This document shows positions 39,499-50,226 of a stretch of DNA of 64,000 nt, piece after piece. Under the pieces are notes generated by a model. That model did no database searches, was not told the DNA's origin, and saw only the letters and a list, made by a program, of their open reading frames with translations. Every line of letters begins with the position of its first letter. The stretch's first letter is position 1. The position numbers and the translations under genes were made by a program. Source of the DNA: an uncultured Sphingomonadaceae bacterium (GTDB lineage Bacteria > Pseudomonadota > Alphaproteobacteria > Sphingomonadales > Sphingomonadaceae); the NCBI GenBank assembly GCA_947493215.1, contig CANLQE010000001.1:1923404-1987403 (forward strand). Direction: 5' to 3'.

Positions 39499-40977
39499 AT
39501 GATTTTGAATACCACGTTGAAGATGGAAAAGGCGATGGCTCAGGCGGAAAACTATTCCGACTGGTCAGATGCCGCCGCAGCTCATGACCGGTCCACTGGA
39601 GTTGATGAGTGGAAAGCATCTGACGAGAGTAAGCATTTCGATAATGTTTCCATCCGTCGTCGCCTGAAGCGCCTGTCAAAACTCTGGAAAGCACAAGATA
39701 ATGCAGGGCTGCTTTATGCTCTGAATGAGGGCATCCATGGCAATATGGACGGTATGGGCAATGATCGCCTGCACCAGAAAGCTAGATTTGGCACCAAGCA
39801 ACTGATTCAAGATTATGTCGACGCGATCGTTAACTCGCTGGAGTATCTAGCTAGCGACAAGGTTGATGATATTTCCTTCGAAGAGAAGCTCGATTTCTTC
39901 CGTCGCGCTCAACATTGCTATGGCCGTTCGGCTTTCTTAATGAGTGGCTCAGGCGCCTTTCTCTATTTTCACATGGGTGTGGTGAAAGCCCTTTGGTCGG
40001 AAGGTCTTTTGCCGCACATCATGTCTGGATCTAGCGGTGGTTCGGTCGTCGGTGCGCTGGTTAGTACACATGTCGATGATGAAATTTCACCGTTTTTTGA
40101 ACCAGAGAATCTGGTAACCGAAGGTGCGGACGAAATTGTAGCGCAGACAGGCTTTGGAATATTGGGCGCGACCAAGCGACTAAAGATCGACGAAATACGC
40201 AGTCGTATTAGTAATATGATCCCAGATCTCACGTTTCAGGAAGCTTACGAACTGACCGGTCGACATCTAAACGTATCCATTGCACCAGCGGAAAAGCATC
40301 AGACATCAAGGCTGCTAAATGCTATAGCATCGCCCAACGTATATATCCGGGAAGCCGTTATGGCGTCCTGCGCGGTCCCTGGGGTATATCCACCCGTCAC
40401 ATTGGCGGCGAAAGACCATAAAGGTGAGCGTACGCCATATCTGCCTAATCGGAAATGGGTTGATGGCTCGGTCACACATGACCTGCCTGCAAAGCGCCTC
40501 GCGCGGCTCTATGGGGTCAATCACCATATTGTAAGCCAGGCTAACCCGCTGATCACCCCGTTTGCGACGGATGTAAAGCAACAGAAAACGGCGATATCCG
40601 CCATTAGAAATGCGACGACATCTACGATGAAGGCGTGGCTCAACGCGAATGTCCAGATCATGCAGAAGCCACTGTCTTACTTTCCACGACTCAACAGTAT
40701 GGCCAATATGACGCTGTCTGTGGTCAATCAGGATTATACTGGCGACATCAACATTATTCGGCCGACAATGTTCTGGAGTCCCGCTAAAATCCTTAGTGAC
40801 CTCTCCGTTGAGGAAATTGGTGAACTTGTTCAACTCGGTGAGCGGACGACGTGGCCGAAGATAGAAATGGTGCGCACGCAAACGAAAATTAGTCAAACGC
40901 TGGACCGGATATTGTTCGAATATGAAACCGAATTGGCGCATGATCATACGATTGCGATGAAGAGGAAAATCGCTTGA
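39499..40977 (+). CDS. DUF3336/patatin-like lipase (TGL3/4/5-like)
   Basis: 492 residues. A helical DUF3336 domain (about residues 15-135) precedes a patatin phospholipase domain. Oxyanion glycines are in 'MSGSGAFLYFHMG', the nucleophile is Ser179 in 'GSSGG' (177-181), and the dyad Asp322 is in 'WVDGSVTHDLP'. DUF3336 plus patatin is the layout of yeast lipid-droplet triacylglycerol lipases Tgl3/4/5, which fits a role in breaking down stored lipid. ATG 39523 or 39535 are alternative starts. It shares one base with the next gene. Confidence 0.88.
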   Translation: MILNTTLKMEKAMAQAENYSDWSDAAAAHDRSTGVDEWKASDESKHFDNVSIRRRLKRLSKLWKAQDNAGLLYALNEGIHGNMDGMGNDRLHQKARFGTKQLIQDYVDAIVNSLEYLASDKVDDISFEEKLDFFRRAQHCYGRSAFLMSGSGAFLYFHMGVVKALWSEGLLPHIMSGSSGGSVVGALVSTHVDDEISPFFEPENLVTEGADEIVAQTGFGILGATKRLKIDEIRSRISNMIPDLTFQEAYELTGRHLNVSIAPAEKHQTSRLLNAIASPNVYIREAVMASCAVPGVYPPVTLAAKDHKGERTPYLPNRKWVDGSVTHDLPAKRLARLYGVNHHIVSQANPLITPFATDVKQQKTAISAIRNATTSTMKAWLNANVQIMQKPLSYFPRLNSMANMTLSVVNQDYTGDINIIRPTMFWSPAKILSDLSVEEIGELVQLGERTTWPKIEMVRTQTKISQTLDRILFEYETELAHDHTIAMKRKIA

Positions 40978-41828
40978 TGCATCAAGAAGGGCAGTTGACC
41001 CTACCTACTACATCAGCGGCAGCTGGAGCTGCCCTTTATTGTCAAAGCTGGACTCCTGAGGCGCCCGCTAAAGCGGTTATTATCCTCGTTCATGGCTATG
41101 ATGAGCATAGTGGCCGTTATAAATATTTCGCAGAACATTGTGTCAAAAATGGCTTTGCCGTTCACACGCTTGATCATTGGGGGCACGGAAAATCCGATGG
41201 TGAAAATGGCTTCATTCCTGACTTCTCCGTCTATCATGATGGCTTGGATGCGTTGATTGAACAATTGCCGTCTGATGAAAAAACAATGCCGCTCATATTG
41301 GTAGGGCATAGCTTGGGCGGTCTAATCGGTGCGACCTATTTGCTTGAAAATCAGTCGCACTTTGCGGCTGCTGTCCTGTCTGGCCCCGCCATAAAGGCCA
41401 CGGAAGAGCCTTCCGGATTTATGAAGGGTTTGAGTAAGCTTCTTTCAAAGGTGGCCCCAAAAATGGGCGTTTTAGCTTTGGACGCTAGTGGCGTTAGTCG
41501 TGATCCAAAAGTAGTTGCAGATTATTTAGCCGACCCCCTGGTCTCGGGCACAAAGATCAGTGCCCGGTTGGCCGCTGAAATGATGGCTAATATGGAGCGA
41601 GTACAAAGTCAGGCGGCGAAAATCACGTTGCCGTTGTTGTTACTTCATGGCGAGCAAGATAGTCTTACCGCCCCCGAAGGATCCGTATTTTTGAACAAAC
41701 ATGCCGGCTCGATCCAAAAGCAGCTGAAAATTTATCCCGAATTGTTTCACGAGATTTTTAATGAGCCAGAAAAAGATACAGTGCTGACGGACATGACCGA
41801 CTGGCTTGAGAGTATCCTTGCGCTGTGA
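40977..41828 (+). CDS. Alpha/beta hydrolase, monoacylglycerol-lipase-like
   Basis: 283 residues from ATG 40977, whose A is the last base of the patatin-gene stop. 'VHGYDEHSGRYKYFAEHC' and 'LDHWGHGKSDG' are classic for the monoacylglycerol lipase/lysophospholipase group; the nucleophile is Ser112 in 'GHSLGG', with Asp in 'HGEQDSLTAPE' and His in 'LFHEIFNE'. Predicted to hydrolyse monoacylglycerol released by the preceding lipase. Confidence 0.87.
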   Translation: MHQEGQLTLPTTSAAAGAALYCQSWTPEAPAKAVIILVHGYDEHSGRYKYFAEHCVKNGFAVHTLDHWGHGKSDGENGFIPDFSVYHDGLDALIEQLPSDEKTMPLILVGHSLGGLIGATYLLENQSHFAAAVLSGPAIKATEEPSGFMKGLSKLLSKVAPKMGVLALDASGVSRDPKVVADYLADPLVSGTKISARLAAEMMANMERVQSQAAKITLPLLLLHGEQDSLTAPEGSVFLNKHAGSIQKQLKIYPELFHEIFNEPEKDTVLTDMTDWLESILAL

Positions 41829-41859
41829 TGACAACAAATGCGGATAAAGGGATTTCGCA

Positions 41860-42789
41860 ATGATGATCATATTATATATTTTGGGCGCGATAATCTTGGC
41901 TGCGTTGGTTGGATATTTTGTCTTTCCGAAAACTGTGTACGGGCTGATGACAGCCATGATCCGCCTGCGCGGAGGGATGCGGCTGAAGTCTATACAGGTT
42001 GGTGATGATATCTGGCCTTATCTGGAAGGTGGCCGCGGTGACGGCGTGCCCGTCGTTCTGTTGCATGGCTTTGGTGGAGACAAAGATAATTGGTCAATCT
42101 ATGCGCCCTATATTACCAAGCATCATCGCCTGATTGCGCCTGATCTGCCGGGTTTTGGTGAAAATGACAGGTCATTGAATCGCGACTATGACGTGCTAAC
42201 ACAGGCGCACCGGTTAAACGCCTTTCTGGATGCCATGAACATAACCAAATGCCATATTGGCGGTAACAGCATGGGTGGTTTCATCGCCTTGCAATTTGCC
42301 CTGGAATATCCCGACAAGATAGCGTCGCTCACTTTGTTCAATAACGCAGGCGTTGTTGGCCCGGATAAGAGTGAGTTGCAGATCGCCGCTGAGAAAGGCG
42401 AAAACGCTCTGGCGTTGAACAGTCTCGCTGATGTCGACCGGTTGATGGCTTTCGTGTCTTATGAACCGGTTCCCATGCCAAAAAACTTCAAAAAACTATT
42501 CTTTGCAGAGGCCCATGCCCACAAAGACGTTTTGGATAAAATATTTTGGCAAATTGCCGGTTCCGGTATCAATGATCCTCTTAATGATCGCTTGGGTGAA
42601 GTCGCAGCGCCGAGTCTGATTGTCTGGGGGCGTCATGACAAGCTGATCGATGTGAGCTGTGTTGCTGTGTTGGACGAGGGCATCAAGAATAGCGAAGCCG
42701 TCATATTGGAAGAAACCGGGCATGTACCGATGATCGAAAAACCCAAAGATACCGCGTCTTTCCATCTCGCATTTCTTGCAAAACACTGA
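41860..42789 (+). CDS. Membrane-anchored alpha/beta hydrolase
   Basis: 309 residues. An N-terminal transmembrane anchor (about 3-22) is followed by an alpha/beta hydrolase: oxyanion 'LLHGFGGDKDNW', Ser137 in 'GGNSMGG' (135-140), Asp in 'WGRHDKLIDV', His in 'EETGHVPMIEKP'. It resembles the LIP3-type lipases of Moraxella/Psychrobacter. 31 bases after the MGL-like gene, so probably in the same unit; substrate unknown. Confidence 0.82.
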   Translation: MMIILYILGAIILAALVGYFVFPKTVYGLMTAMIRLRGGMRLKSIQVGDDIWPYLEGGRGDGVPVVLLHGFGGDKDNWSIYAPYITKHHRLIAPDLPGFGENDRSLNRDYDVLTQAHRLNAFLDAMNITKCHIGGNSMGGFIALQFALEYPDKIASLTLFNNAGVVGPDKSELQIAAEKGENALALNSLADVDRLMAFVSYEPVPMPKNFKKLFFAEAHAHKDVLDKIFWQIAGSGINDPLNDRLGEVAAPSLIVWGRHDKLIDVSCVAVLDEGIKNSEAVILEETGHVPMIEKPKDTASFHLAFLAKH

Positions 42790-42859
42790 ATTTCCAGCCA
42801 GCTTGATAAGATAGAACTTCTCAAAAAGGGGAGTCGCGAGAAATATTGGGGAAAATAAG

Positions 42860-43861
42860 ATGAAATTGCGCGTTGGATTATTGGGTGGCGGTTCCTGGGG
42901 AACGACTGTGGCTTCCTTAGTTTCGCGCAATGCACCGATAAAAATATGGGCCAGAGACAGCGAGACCGTAGCCGACATTAACGACAACCATCGCAACAGC
43001 AAATATCTTCCTGATGCAATATTGCCGGAGGCGCTCAAGGCCACCAGTGATATTGGAGATGCTGTATCCGATGCCGATGTCTTGGTCATGGGTATCCCCT
43101 CGAGTAATTTCCGTAAAGTATTGGAAGAAGCACAGCCTTTTTTAAGACCATGGGTGCCGGTGATCAGCCTGACGAAGGGCTTGGAATTGTCTACCGGCAA
43201 GAGGATGACAGAAGTTATTGAAGATGTGTTACCGGGGCATCCAGTAGGTGTGTTGACTGGACCTAATTTGGCGCGGGAAATTATGGCGGGACAGGCGGCG
43301 GCTAGTGTAATTTCCATGGAAGACGAAATTATCGTCAAACAATTGCAGCAGCTATTCCATTCCGGACTGTTTCGCGTTTATACCAATACCGACCTGCTTG
43401 GATGCGAATTGGGTGGCGTCCTTAAAAATATCATAGCCATTGCAGTCGGCATGGGCGACGGATTGGGGGCAGGGGATAACACGCGCTCTGCGCTCATTAC
43501 TCGTGGTCTCGCGGAGATCACCCGCTTGGGTGTTGCGATGGGTGGGCGTCCTGAAACCTTTTCTGGCCTAACGGGAATGGGAGATATGATCGCGACCTGT
43601 ACAAGTCCGCTGAGTCGGAACCGTCATGTTGGCGTTGAACTCGGCAAGGGACGTAAGATTGATGAAATCATCGAAGAGATGCTGATGGTAGCAGAGGGTG
43701 TCAAAAGCGCCCCAACCGTGATGGCACTTGCCAAAAAATATAACGTGGCGATGCCCATTGCGGAGGATGTTTTCGAGGTCACGAAAGGCACCAGGTCAGC
43801 AACACGTGCTTATCGTGGTTTGATTAGTGCATCTGCTGGTTCTGAAGCCGACGCTGGGTGA
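42860..43861 (+). CDS. gpsA: Glycerol-3-phosphate dehydrogenase [NAD(P)+]
   Basis: 333 residues. N-terminal Rossmann 'LLGGGSWGTTVAS', 'SLTKGLELSTGKRM', 'LTGPNLAREIMAGQAAA' with the catalytic lysine region 'GGVLKNIIAIAVGM', and 'FSGLTGMGDMIATCTS' identify GpsA. It reduces dihydroxyacetone phosphate to glycerol-3-phosphate, the substrate of PlsB encoded upstream. It closes the lipid cluster. Confidence 0.94.
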   Translation: MKLRVGLLGGGSWGTTVASLVSRNAPIKIWARDSETVADINDNHRNSKYLPDAILPEALKATSDIGDAVSDADVLVMGIPSSNFRKVLEEAQPFLRPWVPVISLTKGLELSTGKRMTEVIEDVLPGHPVGVLTGPNLAREIMAGQAAASVISMEDEIIVKQLQQLFHSGLFRVYTNTDLLGCELGGVLKNIIAIAVGMGDGLGAGDNTRSALITRGLAEITRLGVAMGGRPETFSGLTGMGDMIATCTSPLSRNRHVGVELGKGRKIDEIIEEMLMVAEGVKSAPTVMALAKKYNVAMPIAEDVFEVTKGTRSATRAYRGLISASAGSEADAG

Positions 43862-43967: not shown

Positions 43968-44151
43968 AAAGGGTTATTTACCATTAAGTCCTACCAAATA
44001 CAGGCATTTTTTTTGGTCCGTTAAGGATGTAATTTAAACTTTTTACTTTTGCTTGCTTCTTTTTGGGGCGTGCCATAAAAATATATCCCAAGCAGATCGG
44101 AAATTGTTACGTCACAGTATCGACGCAACCCCGATAATGTGGAGAGTATAT

Positions 44152-45105
44152 ATGGATTTACGAAGCCAAGCCGTAAATGATATCGAGGCCGATTTGGTTC
44201 TTGATGCGACGGATGAAATGATCACTCCACATGGTGGTTTTGGCCGAGATATATTCACACGAAAATTCAATGAAATAGATTTGCGGTTCGATAGGTCTGA
44301 TGAAATTTTCTGGTGCTATATGAACCAGAAGTCTCGTCCCAGCTATACTTATGAATTGGGTGACGAAATCCAATTGGTACAAGATTGGGTGCATGCAAAT
44401 TATGCGGTCGATGTGTCGCACAATATAGATCCCCTTCGCTATTTTGTTTGCGGATCACATACGCCGGGCATCTACAACCTCGGTGGTGATCTAAAACATT
44501 TTGCGGATTGCATCCGTCGCCGCGATTTGGGCGCTTTGAAAAAATACGCGCGGACCTGTGTTCACATGCAATATGCCAACAGTACCGGTTTTGGTGCTCC
44601 GATTATAACTATGGCTTTGGTGCAGGGCGATGCGCTCGGTGGTGGTTTCGAACATGCTTTGGCATTTGATATTCTGGTTGCCGAAAGAAGCGCAAGATTA
44701 GGCTTGCCCGAAATTCTCTTCAATTTGTTTCCCGGCATGGGTGCCTACAGCTATCTCAGACAACGCCTTGGCCGCAAAGAGACGGAACAGTTCATTCTGG
44801 AAGGAAAGCTGTTCACGGCAGAAGAACTTTATGAGATGGGCGTGGTCGATATTCTGGCTGAAGACGGTAAGGGCGAAGAAGCAATCATCGAATATACAAA
44901 GACAAATCGGAAGCGTTTCCATGCGGAACGCGCTGTTTATAAGGCAAGGCGTCTAGCCAATCCCGTGACGATAGACGAGTTGTTGGAGATCACCGAAATG
45001 TGGGCGGAAACAGCACTTCATCTGGAAGAGGCAGATGTGCGCAAAATGGAACGCTTGGCCATGGCGCAAGAACGCAGAATAGCTCGCTCGCTTCGAGCCG
45101 TTTGA
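44152..45105 (+). CDS. rpfF: RpfF-like DSF (cis-2-unsaturated fatty acid signal) synthase
   Basis: 317 residues, crotonase superfamily. Start ATG 44152 is set by a strong 'ggagag' at 44141-44146; the frame is open 33 codons further up (TTG 44053) without a good site. The core 'QGDALGGGFEHAL' and 'LGLPEILFNLFPGMGAYSYL' matches RpfF closely. Glu167 and Glu187 are 20 residues apart, the same spacing as the catalytic Glu141/Glu161 of Xanthomonas RpfF, which acts as both dehydratase and thioesterase on 3-hydroxyacyl-ACP. It faces the RpfC-like kinase gene tail to tail (9 bases), as in Xanthomonas. No rpfB-like ligase is nearby. Confidence 0.85.
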   Translation: MDLRSQAVNDIEADLVLDATDEMITPHGGFGRDIFTRKFNEIDLRFDRSDEIFWCYMNQKSRPSYTYELGDEIQLVQDWVHANYAVDVSHNIDPLRYFVCGSHTPGIYNLGGDLKHFADCIRRRDLGALKKYARTCVHMQYANSTGFGAPIITMALVQGDALGGGFEHALAFDILVAERSARLGLPEILFNLFPGMGAYSYLRQRLGRKETEQFILEGKLFTAEELYEMGVVDILAEDGKGEEAIIEYTKTNRKRFHAERAVYKARRLANPVTIDELLEITEMWAETALHLEEADVRKMERLAMAQERRIARSLRAV

Positions 45106-45114
45106 TAACCGTTT

Positions 45115-47694
45115 CTAACCGGCTGCACTATAACCGTCGTCCGTATTGCCATCATCGTATGTTTTTGGATTTTTGAAAAAGTTCGTAATCCGTGAAACTT
45201 CCTCCTCGGTACGTGCGAGATACTCAAAACGCCGTTTGGTAAACTCCGCTTCAGTGATCACCTCAAAGTGACCGCACATCTGTGCGAGTTTGGTCGCGCC
45301 AACATTGTTTGCACCGCTTTTGAAAGCATGGGCCTGAAAACGAAAATCTTCCACGTCGCCCTTCTCAACAGATTTACTGAAAGCAATCATGATATCTAAT
45401 GTGTCGTCGATATATGCATCGATGATGGATTGAACAAAGCTCTCGTCGCCGATGGATCGTAGATAGTCCATTTGTTTGACGTCAATTGGAGGGCTTGGAT
45501 CAGCCGCTGATCCTGATCCGATAGATTGAACGACATCAAACGGATCATCGCTAGCAGCGACCTTCGCTTCATCTGCATTAAGGAAATTGCCTGTCTGTTC
45601 TGCAACGGTGTCCAGTAACAAGCCGGCCTCGATAGGTTTAGTGAGGCGTAGGTCCATGCCTGCGTCCAAGCATTTTTTCTCTGTTTCCGCTGTAGAGTCC
45701 GCGGTTAGGCCGATAACTGGGGTATGATCGCGTGGCCCTTCGATCTGGCGCCAAAATTTACAGCATTCTATGCCACCAATATTCGGCATATTGACATCGA
45801 GAAATACGATGTCGAAAGTTTGTTTTTCAAGTTCATCCAGTGCTTTTTCGCCATCAGAGGCCACAACAACTCTATGACCAGCGTTGCTCAATATGGTTTC
45901 TAGGACCAATTGGTTGGTCCGATTATCATCGGCAACCAACACATTGAGCGAAACAGACTTACGGATAATTCTATTGGGATCATCCTCGAGCTCTTTGCCG
46001 ATGCGATTGAAAGAACAACCAATTTGAACAACACTTCGAATGGTGTCAAAGTCAGGTGATGCTGGCAATACCGATGCAAAAGCCGCGCGCAGCTTTATCT
46101 CGTCCAGGCTTTTGCTGCTATTTTTGGATAGCAATACAGGCGGCAAGTTGGCGTCTCGAAAATAGTTCCAGAAGACTGCATCATCTTTATGCTGTTCCGC
46201 TATTTCTTCATCTAACAAAGCCATGTCGTAAGAGGAAAGGGTGCGATGCTTGAGGATCGTCTCCGAACGGTCGTTTCTGGCACATTGAATATGTTCAATA
46301 TGGAGCTCTCCATCCTCTTCTCGACTGATAGTCGGGCCATTTAGACCAAATCCCAGCGACAATATTTTGTAGCTTTCTCCGCTTTTCAAGCTACCGCCCT
46401 CAACAACCGGATTAATCGGACAACTCAGAGTAAAGGTGCTGCCTTCTCCCACATTGCTTTCTAGAGAAATATCGCCGCCCATTTGTATTGCTAATTGTTG
46501 ACAGATGGCAAGGCCCAGTCCTGTGCCACCGAAATTGTCCACGATGCTATCATCGGCTTGCTGAAAAATACCAAATATTTTTTCGTGCGCTTCTGCCGGT
46601 ATTCCTGGTCCGGTGTCGGTTACGGAACACCATAGATGTGGAAGTTCTGCGTCATCATCTATTCCGCATTTCAACGTGACCGTTCCGGTCTCCGTGAATT
46701 TGACCGCGTTGCTAGTCAAATTAATCAAGATATTGCGGATGTAATCCAGCTGCCCAGCGATTCGCTGATCGCTAAGCGCTTCGGCTTGAAGATGAATTTT
46801 TAGACCCTTTTCAGTGGCCGCCAATTGCAAAATATCCCGTACATCGGTCAAGACGTCGACGATGCTGAACTCCTTCGGTTCTGGAAGTTCTTCTTGTGTA
46901 TCTGATTGAGCAAAAGTGAGGAGCTGATTGATCAGATGAAGCAGATGCTGCCCTGCTGATACACTGGTTCCTACCATTTGCTGTTGTGCTTCTGGTAATT
47001 TCATATCCAGCAAGTGCGTACCATATCCGATAATGGCATTGAGCGGTGTACGCAATTCATGGCTAATACTTGCCAGAAACAGGCTTTTCGCTTTATTTGC
47101 GTTTTCGGCCTCTTTTGTCGCCTTAGAAATTTTGATGATCAAAGTTGAGCAATAGGCTGGGACCACGACAAGGCCGACCAGAAGGCCGATTGATAGCGAC
47201 AAGTTGTGATGCCAATAAGGTACTGAATATACGGTCCAACCGAATGAGAATGTCCCTAATGCCGCCGCTACTGCTAGCCATTTGATACCAAAGCGGAAAC
47301 CATATCCCAATATCACCCATAGGTATAAAGGATAGAGGGCGGCAACAGCTCCACCGCCAATTTCGAACAAATAAGTCGAGACGCCAAAATCAACCACTAA
47401 GCCGGCAAGTCGTCTATTGTTGCTCGGTCCAGGTTTGAATCGATAGGCTATCAAAAGTGCAAGGCTACCGATCAGGTGAAGCTGAAACCCCAATATGAGA
47501 TCGGGAGCACCGTTGAGAAAATAGGTTACCGTTAGGGCGATGATGATCAAAACGAGTCGATTGATGATCATCTCACGCTCACGATCGCGACCGCGTTCGA
47601 CTATGTCGCCGCGGTGCGAGTGATGGTGATGATTTCGATGCTTGCTCTTGGCGCTATGTTTCGTATGACGTTTGCGCGGCGTGAAGGACAGCAT
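45115..47694 (-). CDS. rpfC: RpfC-like hybrid sensor histidine kinase (DSF receptor candidate)
   Basis: 859 residues. Basic, His-rich cytoplasmic N-terminus (1-41), about five transmembrane helices (43-190) including 'ILGYGFRFGIKWL' as in RpfC, HisKA with His212 ('SHELRTPLNAIIGYG'), HATPase ('NLTSNAVKFTE', 'FGGTGLGLAI'), a poorly conserved receiver-like stretch (about 443-560), a true receiver with Asp633 ('FLDVNMP'), and an HPt domain with His789 ('QAHAFKSGANNVGA'). In Xanthomonas RpfC binds DSF, phosphorylates its regulator through the HPt, and its receiver holds back RpfF. The gene starts 5 bases after the GGDEF-EAL gene ends. Confidence 0.85.
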   Translation of the reverse strand: MLSFTPRKRHTKHSAKSKHRNHHHHSHRGDIVERGRDREREMIINRLVLIIIALTVTYFLNGAPDLILGFQLHLIGSLALLIAYRFKPGPSNNRRLAGLVVDFGVSTYLFEIGGGAVAALYPLYLWVILGYGFRFGIKWLAVAAALGTFSFGWTVYSVPYWHHNLSLSIGLLVGLVVVPAYCSTLIIKISKATKEAENANKAKSLFLASISHELRTPLNAIIGYGTHLLDMKLPEAQQQMVGTSVSAGQHLLHLINQLLTFAQSDTQEELPEPKEFSIVDVLTDVRDILQLAATEKGLKIHLQAEALSDQRIAGQLDYIRNILINLTSNAVKFTETGTVTLKCGIDDDAELPHLWCSVTDTGPGIPAEAHEKIFGIFQQADDSIVDNFGGTGLGLAICQQLAIQMGGDISLESNVGEGSTFTLSCPINPVVEGGSLKSGESYKILSLGFGLNGPTISREEDGELHIEHIQCARNDRSETILKHRTLSSYDMALLDEEIAEQHKDDAVFWNYFRDANLPPVLLSKNSSKSLDEIKLRAAFASVLPASPDFDTIRSVVQIGCSFNRIGKELEDDPNRIIRKSVSLNVLVADDNRTNQLVLETILSNAGHRVVVASDGEKALDELEKQTFDIVFLDVNMPNIGGIECCKFWRQIEGPRDHTPVIGLTADSTAETEKKCLDAGMDLRLTKPIEAGLLLDTVAEQTGNFLNADEAKVAASDDPFDVVQSIGSGSAADPSPPIDVKQMDYLRSIGDESFVQSIIDAYIDDTLDIMIAFSKSVEKGDVEDFRFQAHAFKSGANNVGATKLAQMCGHFEVITEAEFTKRRFEYLARTEEEVSRITNFFKNPKTYDDGNTDDGYSAAG

Positions 47695-47699
47695 TGTAC

Positions 47700-49856
47700 C
47701 TATACTTTCGCCGGATTGATGGTTTTTTTCTGATGCGTTAAGAACAGCTTAGATAGGTTTTTGGCGTGCTGTGGACGGGCAATCTTAAAGCCTTGAATTT
47801 CGTCACAGCCAGAAGCTTGCAAGAGTTCAAGTTGGGCGTCATTTTCGACACCTTCCGCGATCACCCTCATGTCAAGCGCATGAGCAAGATGCGAGATCGT
47901 ACCGATGATCGCTCGATCAGCGGCAGAATGCTCAATCCTTGATATAAATGTACGATCGATTTTCAGACAGTTGGCTGGTAAATCTCTCAAATATTGTAGC
48001 GAGGAATAGCCGGTCCCGAAATCGTCTATTGAAATACCAACGCCGGCTTCGCGCAGTCGGATCAGCGACTGGCTAACATGATCATTATTATTGAGCAGCA
48101 ATTCTTCGGTAATTTCAACAACGATTTTTGAAGGATCAATCCCATTCAATTCGATATTCTTCAATACCTCGTCACAGACATTTTGATTTTGGAACTGGCG
48201 CGGCGAAATGTTGATCGCGACACGTGGAAGATCAACGCCTTCATCCGCTGATTGACGAATTTGCCGACATACCTCCGCGATGACCCATTTGCCGAGGGTA
48301 TCCATGATCCCCGTATCATCAGCAACCCGAATAAATTGTACGGGCAATAAACGTCCACGGGTGGGATGATCCCAACGGATCAACGCTTCCAATCCAACAT
48401 AGTCTAATGTCTTTGCATCAACAATCGGTTGATATTCTAAAGCGAATTGCTGCTGGCTCAGTGCATCACGTAATTCAATCTCTAAGGAAGCATCTGCCTG
48501 GGCGATCTGATTCATCCCTTCTGAGAAGAAACGATAACAATTACGGCCATTAGCCTTGGCGTCGTACATTGCCAGATCAGCCAGCCTCAACAATTCTTCA
48601 TACTCATTGCCATCGGCTGGAATCAGGCTGACGCCAATGCTAGCGCCGATGACCTGTTCAATCCCGCTAATGGAGTAAGGTTCGTTGATCGCTTTCAATA
48701 TTTTTGTGCAGCGAGAATTGATCGCATCAGGACCATCTACTTTACCCAGGATTATTGCAAATTCATCGCCGCCAATTCGCGCCGCAAAATCGTCCGGCCC
48801 AACGATCCCAACCAGCCGCTCCGCGACTTCTCGTAGCAAGGTGTCGCCGCTATGATGGCCGCGTGTATCATTGATGACCTTAAATCTATCAAGGTCCAGC
48901 AGTAACAGCGCTGCCTCTTGACCGCTCTTCTTACATGTCTCGATCGTCTTGCGGACTTTTTCAGCCAATAGGGCTCGGTTCGGTAGCCCGGTTAGCATAT
49001 CATGCAATGCCAAATGAGTCCGATGTTCTTCGGCAAATTTGCGGGCCGTAATATCAACAGCTGTGGTCAATACGCCGATAGTCTCTCCTTTGTGATTCAG
49101 AAGGGGAGATTTATTACAGTGGAAGATAAGCTCGACGCCATCGCTGGTGAATTTTTCTTCATAGTGTGGGATCGGTTGTTCCGATTTAATAACTATTTCG
49201 TTTCTGCGATAAGAATTTGTTGCCAGGTCGGGGCCTAGTATCTCGCCAAAGTCGTGACCGACCATTTCATCAGGGGTTTTATCAAAAAGTGCAGATTGAT
49301 AGGCGTTAGTGAACAAGCATCGGCCCGCACGATCTGTCGCATTGATCATGATCGGAATGGTGTCGATAATTTGCTCCAACATGCTCTTGTTGGCAGGCGC
49401 TCGGTTATCAGATATTTCCCCAAGCGATGCATGCTTCCGTTCTATTTCGGAGGCACGTTTCCTCAGATTATCGCTTTTTTCGCTCTTGGTGAGAAGCGAC
49501 ATAGCGCGCCGGCAAAATTCTACATGTGATACGGGGCTTTGCAAAAAGTCCGTTGCACCAGCATCTAGCGCGGATAGGCGGCATTCTCGATCCTGATGCG
49601 CAGTGATAACGATCGCTGGTACATCACCACATTTTGACATCTGGCGGACGTTTTTGATGAACTCGGCACCGTTCATTTTTGGCATCCGATAATCGACCAC
49701 CAGCAGTTCGGCGTTGTTATCGTGCAACCATTCCAGTGCTTCTAAGGGATCAGCAAATGTTACAGAGGAGTATTTCTCCCCCATCATAGTCACAAACTGG
49801 GCATAAATCCTCAGATTTGTGGGCCGGTCATCGACGATTAGAACACGCGTGGTCAT
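47700..49856 (-). CDS. REC-PAS-GGDEF-EAL cyclic-di-GMP regulator in the rpfC operon
   Basis: 718 residues from ATG 49856 ('MTTRVLIVDDR'). Receiver domain with phospho-acceptor Asp55 ('LLVVDYRMP'); PAS domain about 160-272; GGDEF at 362-366 ('ARIGGDEFAIIL'), with the upstream RxxD inhibitory site not preserved (GPDD); EAL at 490-492 ('GLEALIRWDH') with 'DDFGTGYSSLQYLRDLPANCLKIDR' downstream. Both catalytic signatures are intact, so it may make and break c-di-GMP. It takes the position held by the HD-GYP regulator RpfG in Xanthomonas. An ATG nine codons upstream (49883) is possible. Confidence 0.88.
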   Translation of the reverse strand: MTTRVLIVDDRPTNLRIYAQFVTMMGEKYSSVTFADPLEALEWLHDNNAELLVVDYRMPKMNGAEFIKNVRQMSKCGDVPAIVITAHQDRECRLSALDAGATDFLQSPVSHVEFCRRAMSLLTKSEKSDNLRKRASEIERKHASLGEISDNRAPANKSMLEQIIDTIPIMINATDRAGRCLFTNAYQSALFDKTPDEMVGHDFGEILGPDLATNSYRRNEIVIKSEQPIPHYEEKFTSDGVELIFHCNKSPLLNHKGETIGVLTTAVDITARKFAEEHRTHLALHDMLTGLPNRALLAEKVRKTIETCKKSGQEAALLLLDLDRFKVINDTRGHHSGDTLLREVAERLVGIVGPDDFAARIGGDEFAIILGKVDGPDAINSRCTKILKAINEPYSISGIEQVIGASIGVSLIPADGNEYEELLRLADLAMYDAKANGRNCYRFFSEGMNQIAQADASLEIELRDALSQQQFALEYQPIVDAKTLDYVGLEALIRWDHPTRGRLLPVQFIRVADDTGIMDTLGKWVIAEVCRQIRQSADEGVDLPRVAINISPRQFQNQNVCDEVLKNIELNGIDPSKIVVEITEELLLNNNDHVSQSLIRLREAGVGISIDDFGTGYSSLQYLRDLPANCLKIDRTFISRIEHSAADRAIIGTISHLAHALDMRVIAEGVENDAQLELLQASGCDEIQGFKIARPQHAKNLSKLFLTHQKKTINPAKV

Positions 49857-50226
49857 ATAGTGGCAATACGAGGCGATAATCAAAATAAGGTTAACGTCTC
49901 ATTGGTATTGTCTCCCGCCCATTTTTTTGTCTTCCCGATAGAAAAATAGACTAAAAACAAGATGTTATACCTTTGTCTCAATTGTGTTTTCGTAGCTTGA
50001 GCAGTTCACCCGAGCCATTGGTGCAGATATTGACTCAAAAATTTAGAAAGTTGACCATCTAAATAGATGTTTCAGCGGTATTTATCTCATGATCAAACCA
50101 TTTTGGTTTCGATGCTGCTTGCGGGGGCCGTTTTAATTTAGCAGTGCGAAGGAAAGCGAAGACAAGAATAATGATGTTCATCACCATCGAGGTGCGTGGT
50201 CACCTTTTACACATACGGGGGAAGCC
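49857..50226. promoter_or_regulatory. 370-base divergent intergenic region
   Basis: Gap between the GGDEF-EAL gene (minus) and a 193-residue protein gene (plus), so it should hold promoters for both. The only clear structure is an inverted repeat at 50091-50113 (AAACCA-ttt-TGGTTT core, extending by ATC/GAT outside with one mismatch). I see no gene and no confident promoter boxes. The start region of the plus-strand gene has 'gggggaag' at 50217-50224. Confidence 0.4.

Follow-up and report, generated by a model that had tools for sequence, protein, structure and literature searches.

A review describes, in the part of it that was available, two core pathways for the diffusible signal factor (DSF), RpfC-RpfG and RpfR (PMC4504480). 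Which of these, if either, operates at an Rpf-type locus is the question raised by a 64,000-nucleotide stretch of DNA from an uncultured Sphingomonadaceae bacterium (hereafter the window). Here the gene for an RpfF-like crotonase on the forward strand faces an operon of two genes on the reverse strand, which encode a REC-PAS-GGDEF-EAL regulator and an RpfC-like hybrid kinase. A preliminary description of the window had suggested that the regulator stands in for RpfG and unites the two pathways in one protein. We consider it probable that the window carries an alphaproteobacterial Rpf/DSF locus with another output in place of RpfG, where a fatty acid would act on the kinase and, through a phosphorelay to Asp55 of the regulator, change the level of cyclic dimeric guanosine monophosphate (c-di-GMP). 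Beyond the preliminary description, we found that this set of genes is widespread, that a sister form with histidine kinase output exists and that the receiver of the regulator has Ser where Lys is expected. If true, this would be a third DSF pathway and would extend fatty-acid quorum sensing to the alphaproteobacteria, a class for which no account of it was found in the literature searched (open-licence PubMed Central).

All four domains of the regulator were recognized by domain profiles (Table 1), and the kinase gene begins 5 bp downstream of the regulator gene. The open reading frame of the regulator covers 47700-49883 (reverse strand) from a TTG codon; read from the ATG at 49856 it gives 718 amino acids, the same length as the closest homologues (L168 and L169). 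When 47 REC-PAS-GGDEF-EAL proteins were aligned, D9, D10, D55 and T85 of the receiver were invariant, the seven EAL residues checked were intact in every protein and the GGDEF string was intact in 42. In the kinase, the HisKA His, the REC Asp and the HPt His are invariant in 45 of 45 sequences. Its sensor region has five hydrophobic segments on a simple hydropathy scale, and most of the related kinases shown have five or six. The best Protein Data Bank matches of the crotonase were all of RpfF type (7zq7, 1e-55; 3m6m, 5.6e-51; 6dgn/5fus, about 1e-47), the next crotonase following at 3e-14. The catalytic Glu pair (E200 and E220) is present in the window protein, and both residues were found in all 44 crotonases of loci with the same three genes.

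Much of the preliminary description of these proteins held: a REC-PAS-GGDEF-EAL protein does occupy the RpfG position between the neighbours named, Asp55 had been picked correctly as the receiver aspartate, the GGDEF and EAL signatures of the window regulator are intact and the kinase has a phosphorelay layout that includes an HPt domain. The claim that the inhibitory RxxD site is missing is right for the window regulator, which reads GPDD, but not as a trait of the family, in which 21 of the 47 proteins have the site.

In the pathway that we propose, the RpfF-type crotonase would make a cis-2-type fatty acid to be sensed by the multi-transmembrane kinase, and phosphate would pass from His to Asp to His in the kinase and then to Asp55 of the regulator (a four-step phosphorelay). 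The GGDEF and EAL domains of the phosphorylated regulator would then alter c-di-GMP, most likely by net hydrolysis as with RpfG, and the PAS domain would pass the state of the receiver on to the catalytic domains, possibly with an added ligand input. The regulator is, in short, most likely a phosphorelay-controlled c-di-GMP enzyme.

The locus shares with the RpfF-RpfC-RpfG system of Xanthomonas and Leptospirillum a crotonase synthase, a multi-transmembrane hybrid kinase with REC and HPt domains, an adjacent response regulator whose receiver is of the same descent, a c-di-GMP output and (in Xanthomonas) the convergent synthase gene. It differs in having PAS-GGDEF-EAL rather than HD-GYP as output and Ser for Lys in the receiver, and its kinases mostly have Met for Gln22 of the DSF-binding site. 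The preliminary description knew of no described system with this combination. As for the domain order by itself, this does not stand: CfcR (Rup4959) of Pseudomonas putida is a REC-PAS-GGDEF-EAL regulator that requires its Asp65 and the hybrid kinase CfcA and has a cyclase output (PMC4951495, in the part of the paper available). The likeness of the window regulator to CfcR is one of architecture; CfcR differs as an orphan gene with its kinase encoded elsewhere, as a diguanylate cyclase and in that the available part of its account names no RpfF or RpfC. As for the combination at an Rpf locus, the claim stood, no account having been found in the open-licence PubMed Central papers searched, which were represented mostly by titles and the beginnings of abstracts and comprised no subscription papers or preprints.

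Distribution of the locus and outputs of the REC-PAS module

The co-occurrence of the crotonase, the RpfC-like kinase and the REC-PAS-GGDEF-EAL regulator (hereafter the triad) had been proposed for a genome survey in the preliminary description. We examined 80 named loci, those that matched the window crotonase best among 535; by title, they take in records of Burkholderiales, Terriglobia, Leptospirillum and Mycobacterium as well as alphaproteobacteria. L083, L085, L133, L134 and L155 repeat named genomes and were excluded before loci were counted. The triad was present, in conserved gene order, in 40 of the 80, and three carry a REC-HD-GYP protein. Among the carriers are Ancylobacter, Methylopila, Stappia, Pseudovibrio, Microvirga, Rhizobium sp., Gluconacetobacter and Roseomonas, and the variant extends over alphaproteobacterial families that include cultured bacteria (Ancylobacter, Methylopila and Novosphingopyxis). 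In all 45 pairs, regulator and kinase share a strand; they overlap by 4 bp in 12 and are separated by intervening genes in two (L176 and L185).

The named loci overstate the GGDEF-EAL form, because they were picked as the best matches to the window crotonase, and a class sample of 289 alphaproteobacterial genomes gives a fairer count. In this sample the REC-PAS module was found in 18 genomes at E 1e-30 or better. The 17 genomes other than that of the window provided 18 stretches, of which two encode REC-PAS-GGDEF-EAL and the other 16 a histidine kinase preceded by REC-PAS or REC-PAS-PAS. An RpfC-like kinase adjoins 16 of the 18 (one of them cut by a contig end), and 12 are near a crotonase. 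With the window included, three genomes have the GGDEF-EAL output and 15 the histidine kinase output. Therefore, the RpfC partner in alphaproteobacteria is best described as a REC-PAS module with exchangeable outputs. The histidine kinase form, which was found in this analysis and of which the literature available gave no description, shares the REC-PAS module, the Ser-for-Lys receiver and the locus with the window regulator and differs in that its output is a second histidine kinase. If this holds, one sensor kinase would retain its receiver while the output swaps among HD-GYP, GGDEF-EAL and histidine kinase.

In an order sample of 246 genomes, a full-length regulator was found in six, the window's own genome and five of one other genus, and three of these five keep the whole triad; the other two are L080 and L081, described below. 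An rpfG elsewhere, to be paired with this kinase, had been named in advance as counter-evidence. A search of the window's genome, in which all 34 candidates were scored, brought up no REC-HD-GYP gene. Among 38 genomes with the variant, which took in the named triad loci except L182, L185 and L210 (37 of 40), a REC-HD-GYP gene was found elsewhere in three (L205, L211 and L218), and both positive-control genomes were detected. Only some of the first-look candidates were scored per genome (4 in the order sample, 8 in the class sample, 14 in the phylum search described below, 9 in the search behind L080 and L081 and up to 44 in the REC-HD-GYP search), so that absences in the genome searches are no proof.

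Several loci depart from these arrangements. Pairs of an RpfC-like kinase and a REC-PAS-histidine kinase were seen at L285-L302 (from the class sample, where they outnumber GGDEF-EAL forms), L191, L209, L217 and L225, and at L183 the REC-PAS and PAS-HWE kinase parts are separate genes. In the Inquilinus-type loci L176 (11686-13678) and L185, two extra sensor-kinase genes separate the kinase from the regulator; L185 comes from a contig entitled Mycobacterium sp. KBS0706, yet its locus is Inquilinus-like and the record is probably mislabelled. At 13 further loci (L094, L098, L101, L108, L111, L112, L215, L227, L231, L235, L236, L241 and L244), a crotonase gene faces that of a GGDEF-EAL protein, and the locus map lacks an RpfC-like kinase. 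The four such GGDEF-EAL proteins looked at (L094, L098, L101 and L111) have hydrophobic N-termini, and these loci are perhaps another DSF circuit.

Descent of the receiver and the missing lysine

A search of 299 genomes of the phylum showed that the three receivers nearest to that of the window belong to REC-PAS-GGDEF-EAL proteins. The next 26 nearest receivers fetched comprised 19 of REC-HD-GYP proteins and seven whose output was unrecognised by the models used. In a tree of 115 receivers, which has few columns and a midpoint root, all 59 of the REC-PAS type group in a single clade (support 99/98) with the RpfG receivers nearest. These comparisons indicate that the receiver of the window regulator is descended from an RpfG receiver. 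In a quick tree of REC and PAS together, a single clade with support 100 held 46 of the 49 GGDEF-EAL forms; three lay outside it, and kinase forms were placed around them.

The near-universal active-site Lys of canonical receivers, which contacts the phosphate and which we take to be Lys109 of CheY, is replaced in the whole group. Of the 47 REC-PAS-GGDEF-EAL receivers, 45 have Ser at this position (Ser107 in the window) and two have Thr; Ser is also present in 6/6 REC-PAS-kinase and 6/6 other REC-PAS receivers. RpfG receivers beside RpfC have Lys in seven and Arg in three of 10 cases, and 46 further compared receivers all have Lys. Counting one row per distinct receiver over all fetched loci, with seven rows omitted for a gap or no Asp, a receiver followed by such a PAS domain has Ser in 71 and Thr in two of 73 rows, which describes this group and not all REC-PAS proteins, because they were gathered by likeness to this locus. 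The other 200 distinct receivers have Lys in 188, Ser in four, Arg in three, Ala in two, and Tyr, Pro and Leu in one each. For two of these four Ser rows the locus maps show REC-PAS proteins (L180 and L184); the third is a REC-kinase from a different crotonase-RpfC locus (L230), and the fourth lies within a kinase (L164). Two positions after the phosphoacceptor Asp, 55 of 59 REC-PAS receivers and eight of 10 RpfG receivers have a basic residue, and among the 46 others Arg was counted three times in the letters listed; judging by this pattern, the basic residue may substitute for the missing Lys. The uniform change poses a sharp and testable question, namely by what means a receiver that has lost its Lys can switch.

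We tentatively suggest, as a possibility and not as our expectation, that alphaproteobacterial Rpf signalling runs through a distinct class of REC-PAS receiver that replaces RpfG, with Lys changed to Ser or Thr in every member seen and the basic residue at Asp+2 as a possible stand-in, with exchangeable c-di-GMP or histidine kinase outputs and with the PAS domain as a second, intracellular input.

Signal, PAS domain and alternative explanations

Several observations weigh against the proposed pathway. The window crotonase scored 218 bits, against a cut-off of 550 in the curated NCBIfam model of RpfF; on the same strict model the RpfFs of three classical rpfFCG loci scored 236 and 370, which fail, and 580, which passes. 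Distances of kinase and regulator domains were correlated (0.59-0.78 in 44 loci), but the value for HPt and REC (0.73) was no higher than that for HPt and EAL (0.76). The receiver of the regulator is without the canonical Lys, and two further HPt genes are located elsewhere in the window's genome. At L080 (5784-8995) and L081 (5928-9037), the fetched stretch has no crotonase and the kinase is a stub with REC-HPt and no sensor-kinase core, and the adjoining REC-PAS-GGDEF-EAL gene is kept; the regulator thus has a use without DSF. Finally, GGDEF and EAL both look active, so that c-di-GMP could be raised as well as lowered, and CfcR, with the same architecture, is a cyclase according to the available part of its account (PMC4951495).

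The nature of the signal bears on the first alternative, which we regard as rather unlikely: the sphingomonad kinase would respond to a DSF-family acid with different head-group contacts, or to some signal that is not DSF, the remaining pathway being as proposed above. In Xanthomonas RpfC, the residues that bind DSF lie next to the first transmembrane helix and are R15, D17, S18 (where T is accepted), E19 and Q22, and any change of Ser18 except to Thr gave a lower response (PMC5391125, available part). At the corresponding juxtamembrane site of the 45 kinases, E19 was found in 45, D17 in 35, R15 in 27 and S/T18 in 26, Q22 being Met in 30; the counts were identical with or without requiring E/A at position 19. 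Position 18 is Arg in eight kinases and Gly in 10. The window kinase reads GRDREREM, as against RPDSEHEM or RPDTEHEM in many of its kin. It retains only D17 and E19 among the five DSF-binding residues, and many related kinases retain R15, D17, S/T18 and E19. Since the window kinase has Arg for Ser18 and Met for Gln22, and Xanthomonas Ser18 mutants respond less, the signal is perhaps other than DSF. On the other hand, the catalytic residues and the linkage of the crotonase are retained, as are Glu19 and the multi-transmembrane sensor, all of which speaks against this alternative.

It appears unlikely that the regulator is a dual-input integrator, with the PAS domain binding an intracellular fatty-acid signal as RpfR does and the receiver phosphorylated by RpfC. 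The preliminary description had favoured such an integrator and derived the PAS-GGDEF-EAL body from RpfR. The locus does resemble RpfF-RpfR of Burkholderia and Cronobacter in having a PAS-GGDEF-EAL order near an RpfF gene. However, the N-terminus of the window regulator is a receiver and not an RpfF-interaction domain, and a kinase stands between crotonase and regulator. The available part of one paper (PMC6361424) lists S169, N172, Y183, R187 and N202 as the residues of the RpfR PAS domain that bind BDSF (Burkholderia DSF), and the window PAS has S, R, Y, F and N at these positions. Arg187, the carboxylate contact in the Cronobacter structure, is absent from 36 of 36 aligned PAS domains (Escherichia coli PdeR, a true RpfR homologue, also lacks it), and the N202 position is Thr in 21 and Asn in six. 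The RpfR PAS structure 6dgg was only rank 31 by structure and rank 20 by sequence among the PAS domains matched to that of the window, and the PAS domains are less conserved than the receivers (mean identity 0.44 vs 0.55). In a tree of GGDEF-EAL bodies, a weak test in which the long branch of PdeR was the sole RpfR-type sequence, PdeR grouped with a non-Rpf protein (95), and by path length the rows nearest to it were REC-PAS-GGDEF-EAL bodies. Neither the RpfR origin of the body nor the RpfR-like pocket was borne out by these comparisons. As judged from alignment and fold, the window PAS is a generic PAS_4 domain and not specifically RpfR-like, and RpfR-like ligand sensing by it is possible but unsupported.

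As a further alternative, the regulator might be an orphan enzyme of c-di-GMP turnover that is adjacent to Rpf genes for historical reasons and takes its input from other HPt proteins or from PAS alone. The extra HPt genes, the loss of the Lys and the retention of the regulator at L080 and L081 would allow this, but we consider it improbable, since both of these loci still have REC-HPt beside it, the genes of kinase and regulator are adjacent on one strand with 4-bp overlaps and the relay His and Asp are invariant in 45/45 kinases.

Coordinates and related genes

Table 1. Features of the Rpf-type locus, in window positions
Feature	Position	Strand	Basis and remarks
RpfF-like crotonase, putative DSF synthase	44053..45105	+	ECH_1 E 1.4e-19; TTG start called; true start possibly further in
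RpfC-like hybrid kinase, multi-transmembrane sensor-HisKA-HATPase-REC-HPt, 859 aa	45115..47694	-	Domain profiles and homologues
Kinase juxtamembrane motif GRDREREMIINR	47557..47592	-	Position of the Xanthomonas RpfC DSF-binding residues; D17 and E19 kept; S18 = R; Q22 = M
Kinase membrane sensor region	47134..47556	-	Homology to RpfC-type sensors; hydropathy
Kinase HisKA and HATPase	46414..47091	-	Domain profiles
Kinase receiver	45604..45942	-	Domain profile; Asp kept in 45/45 kinases
Kinase HPt	45262..45423	-	E 1.3e-4, just under curated cut-off; above cut-off in second search; His in 45/45
Response regulator REC-PAS-GGDEF-EAL, upstream of the kinase gene, 718 aa	47700..49856	-	Domain profiles, gene map, alignment
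Regulator receiver, RpfG descent	49515..49844	-	Response_reg E 9.3e-22; tree
Regulator Asp55, putative phosphoacceptor	49692..49694	-	47/47 aligned proteins
Regulator Ser107 at canonical receiver Lys position	49536..49538	-	S 45, T 2 of 47
Regulator PAS_4 domain	49038..49364	-	E 4.9e-11; PAS fold in model, pLDDT (predicted local distance difference test) 81.8
Regulator GGDEF domain, motif intact, I-site GPDD	48540..49010	-	GGDEF E 2e-46; alignment
Regulator EAL domain, catalytic residues intact	47772..48476	-	EAL E 2e-73; alignment

Unusual forms of the kinase were seen at three loci. L141 (7260-9992) and L165 (6588-9320) encode RpfC proteins with two tandem sensor regions and twelve hydrophobic segments, and at L162 (7036-8130) an RpfC-like sensor region is joined straight to a GGDEF domain in a protein of 364 amino acids.

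Putative DSF synthases with a C-terminal haem-oxygenase-like iron redox domain (PF14518) are encoded at L083 (4019-5911, E 3e-21) and L084 (7820-9886, E 2e-19), and L085 and L086 have long crotonases too; all four loci belong to other Sphingomonadales families. Going by the domain content, the fused domain possibly carries out a second step on the fatty acid. Upstream of the window crotonase, at 39499-43861, there are genes for a patatin-like phospholipase and two alpha/beta hydrolases and a gpsA-like gene (names from sequence alone), which are possible candidates for fatty-acid supply.
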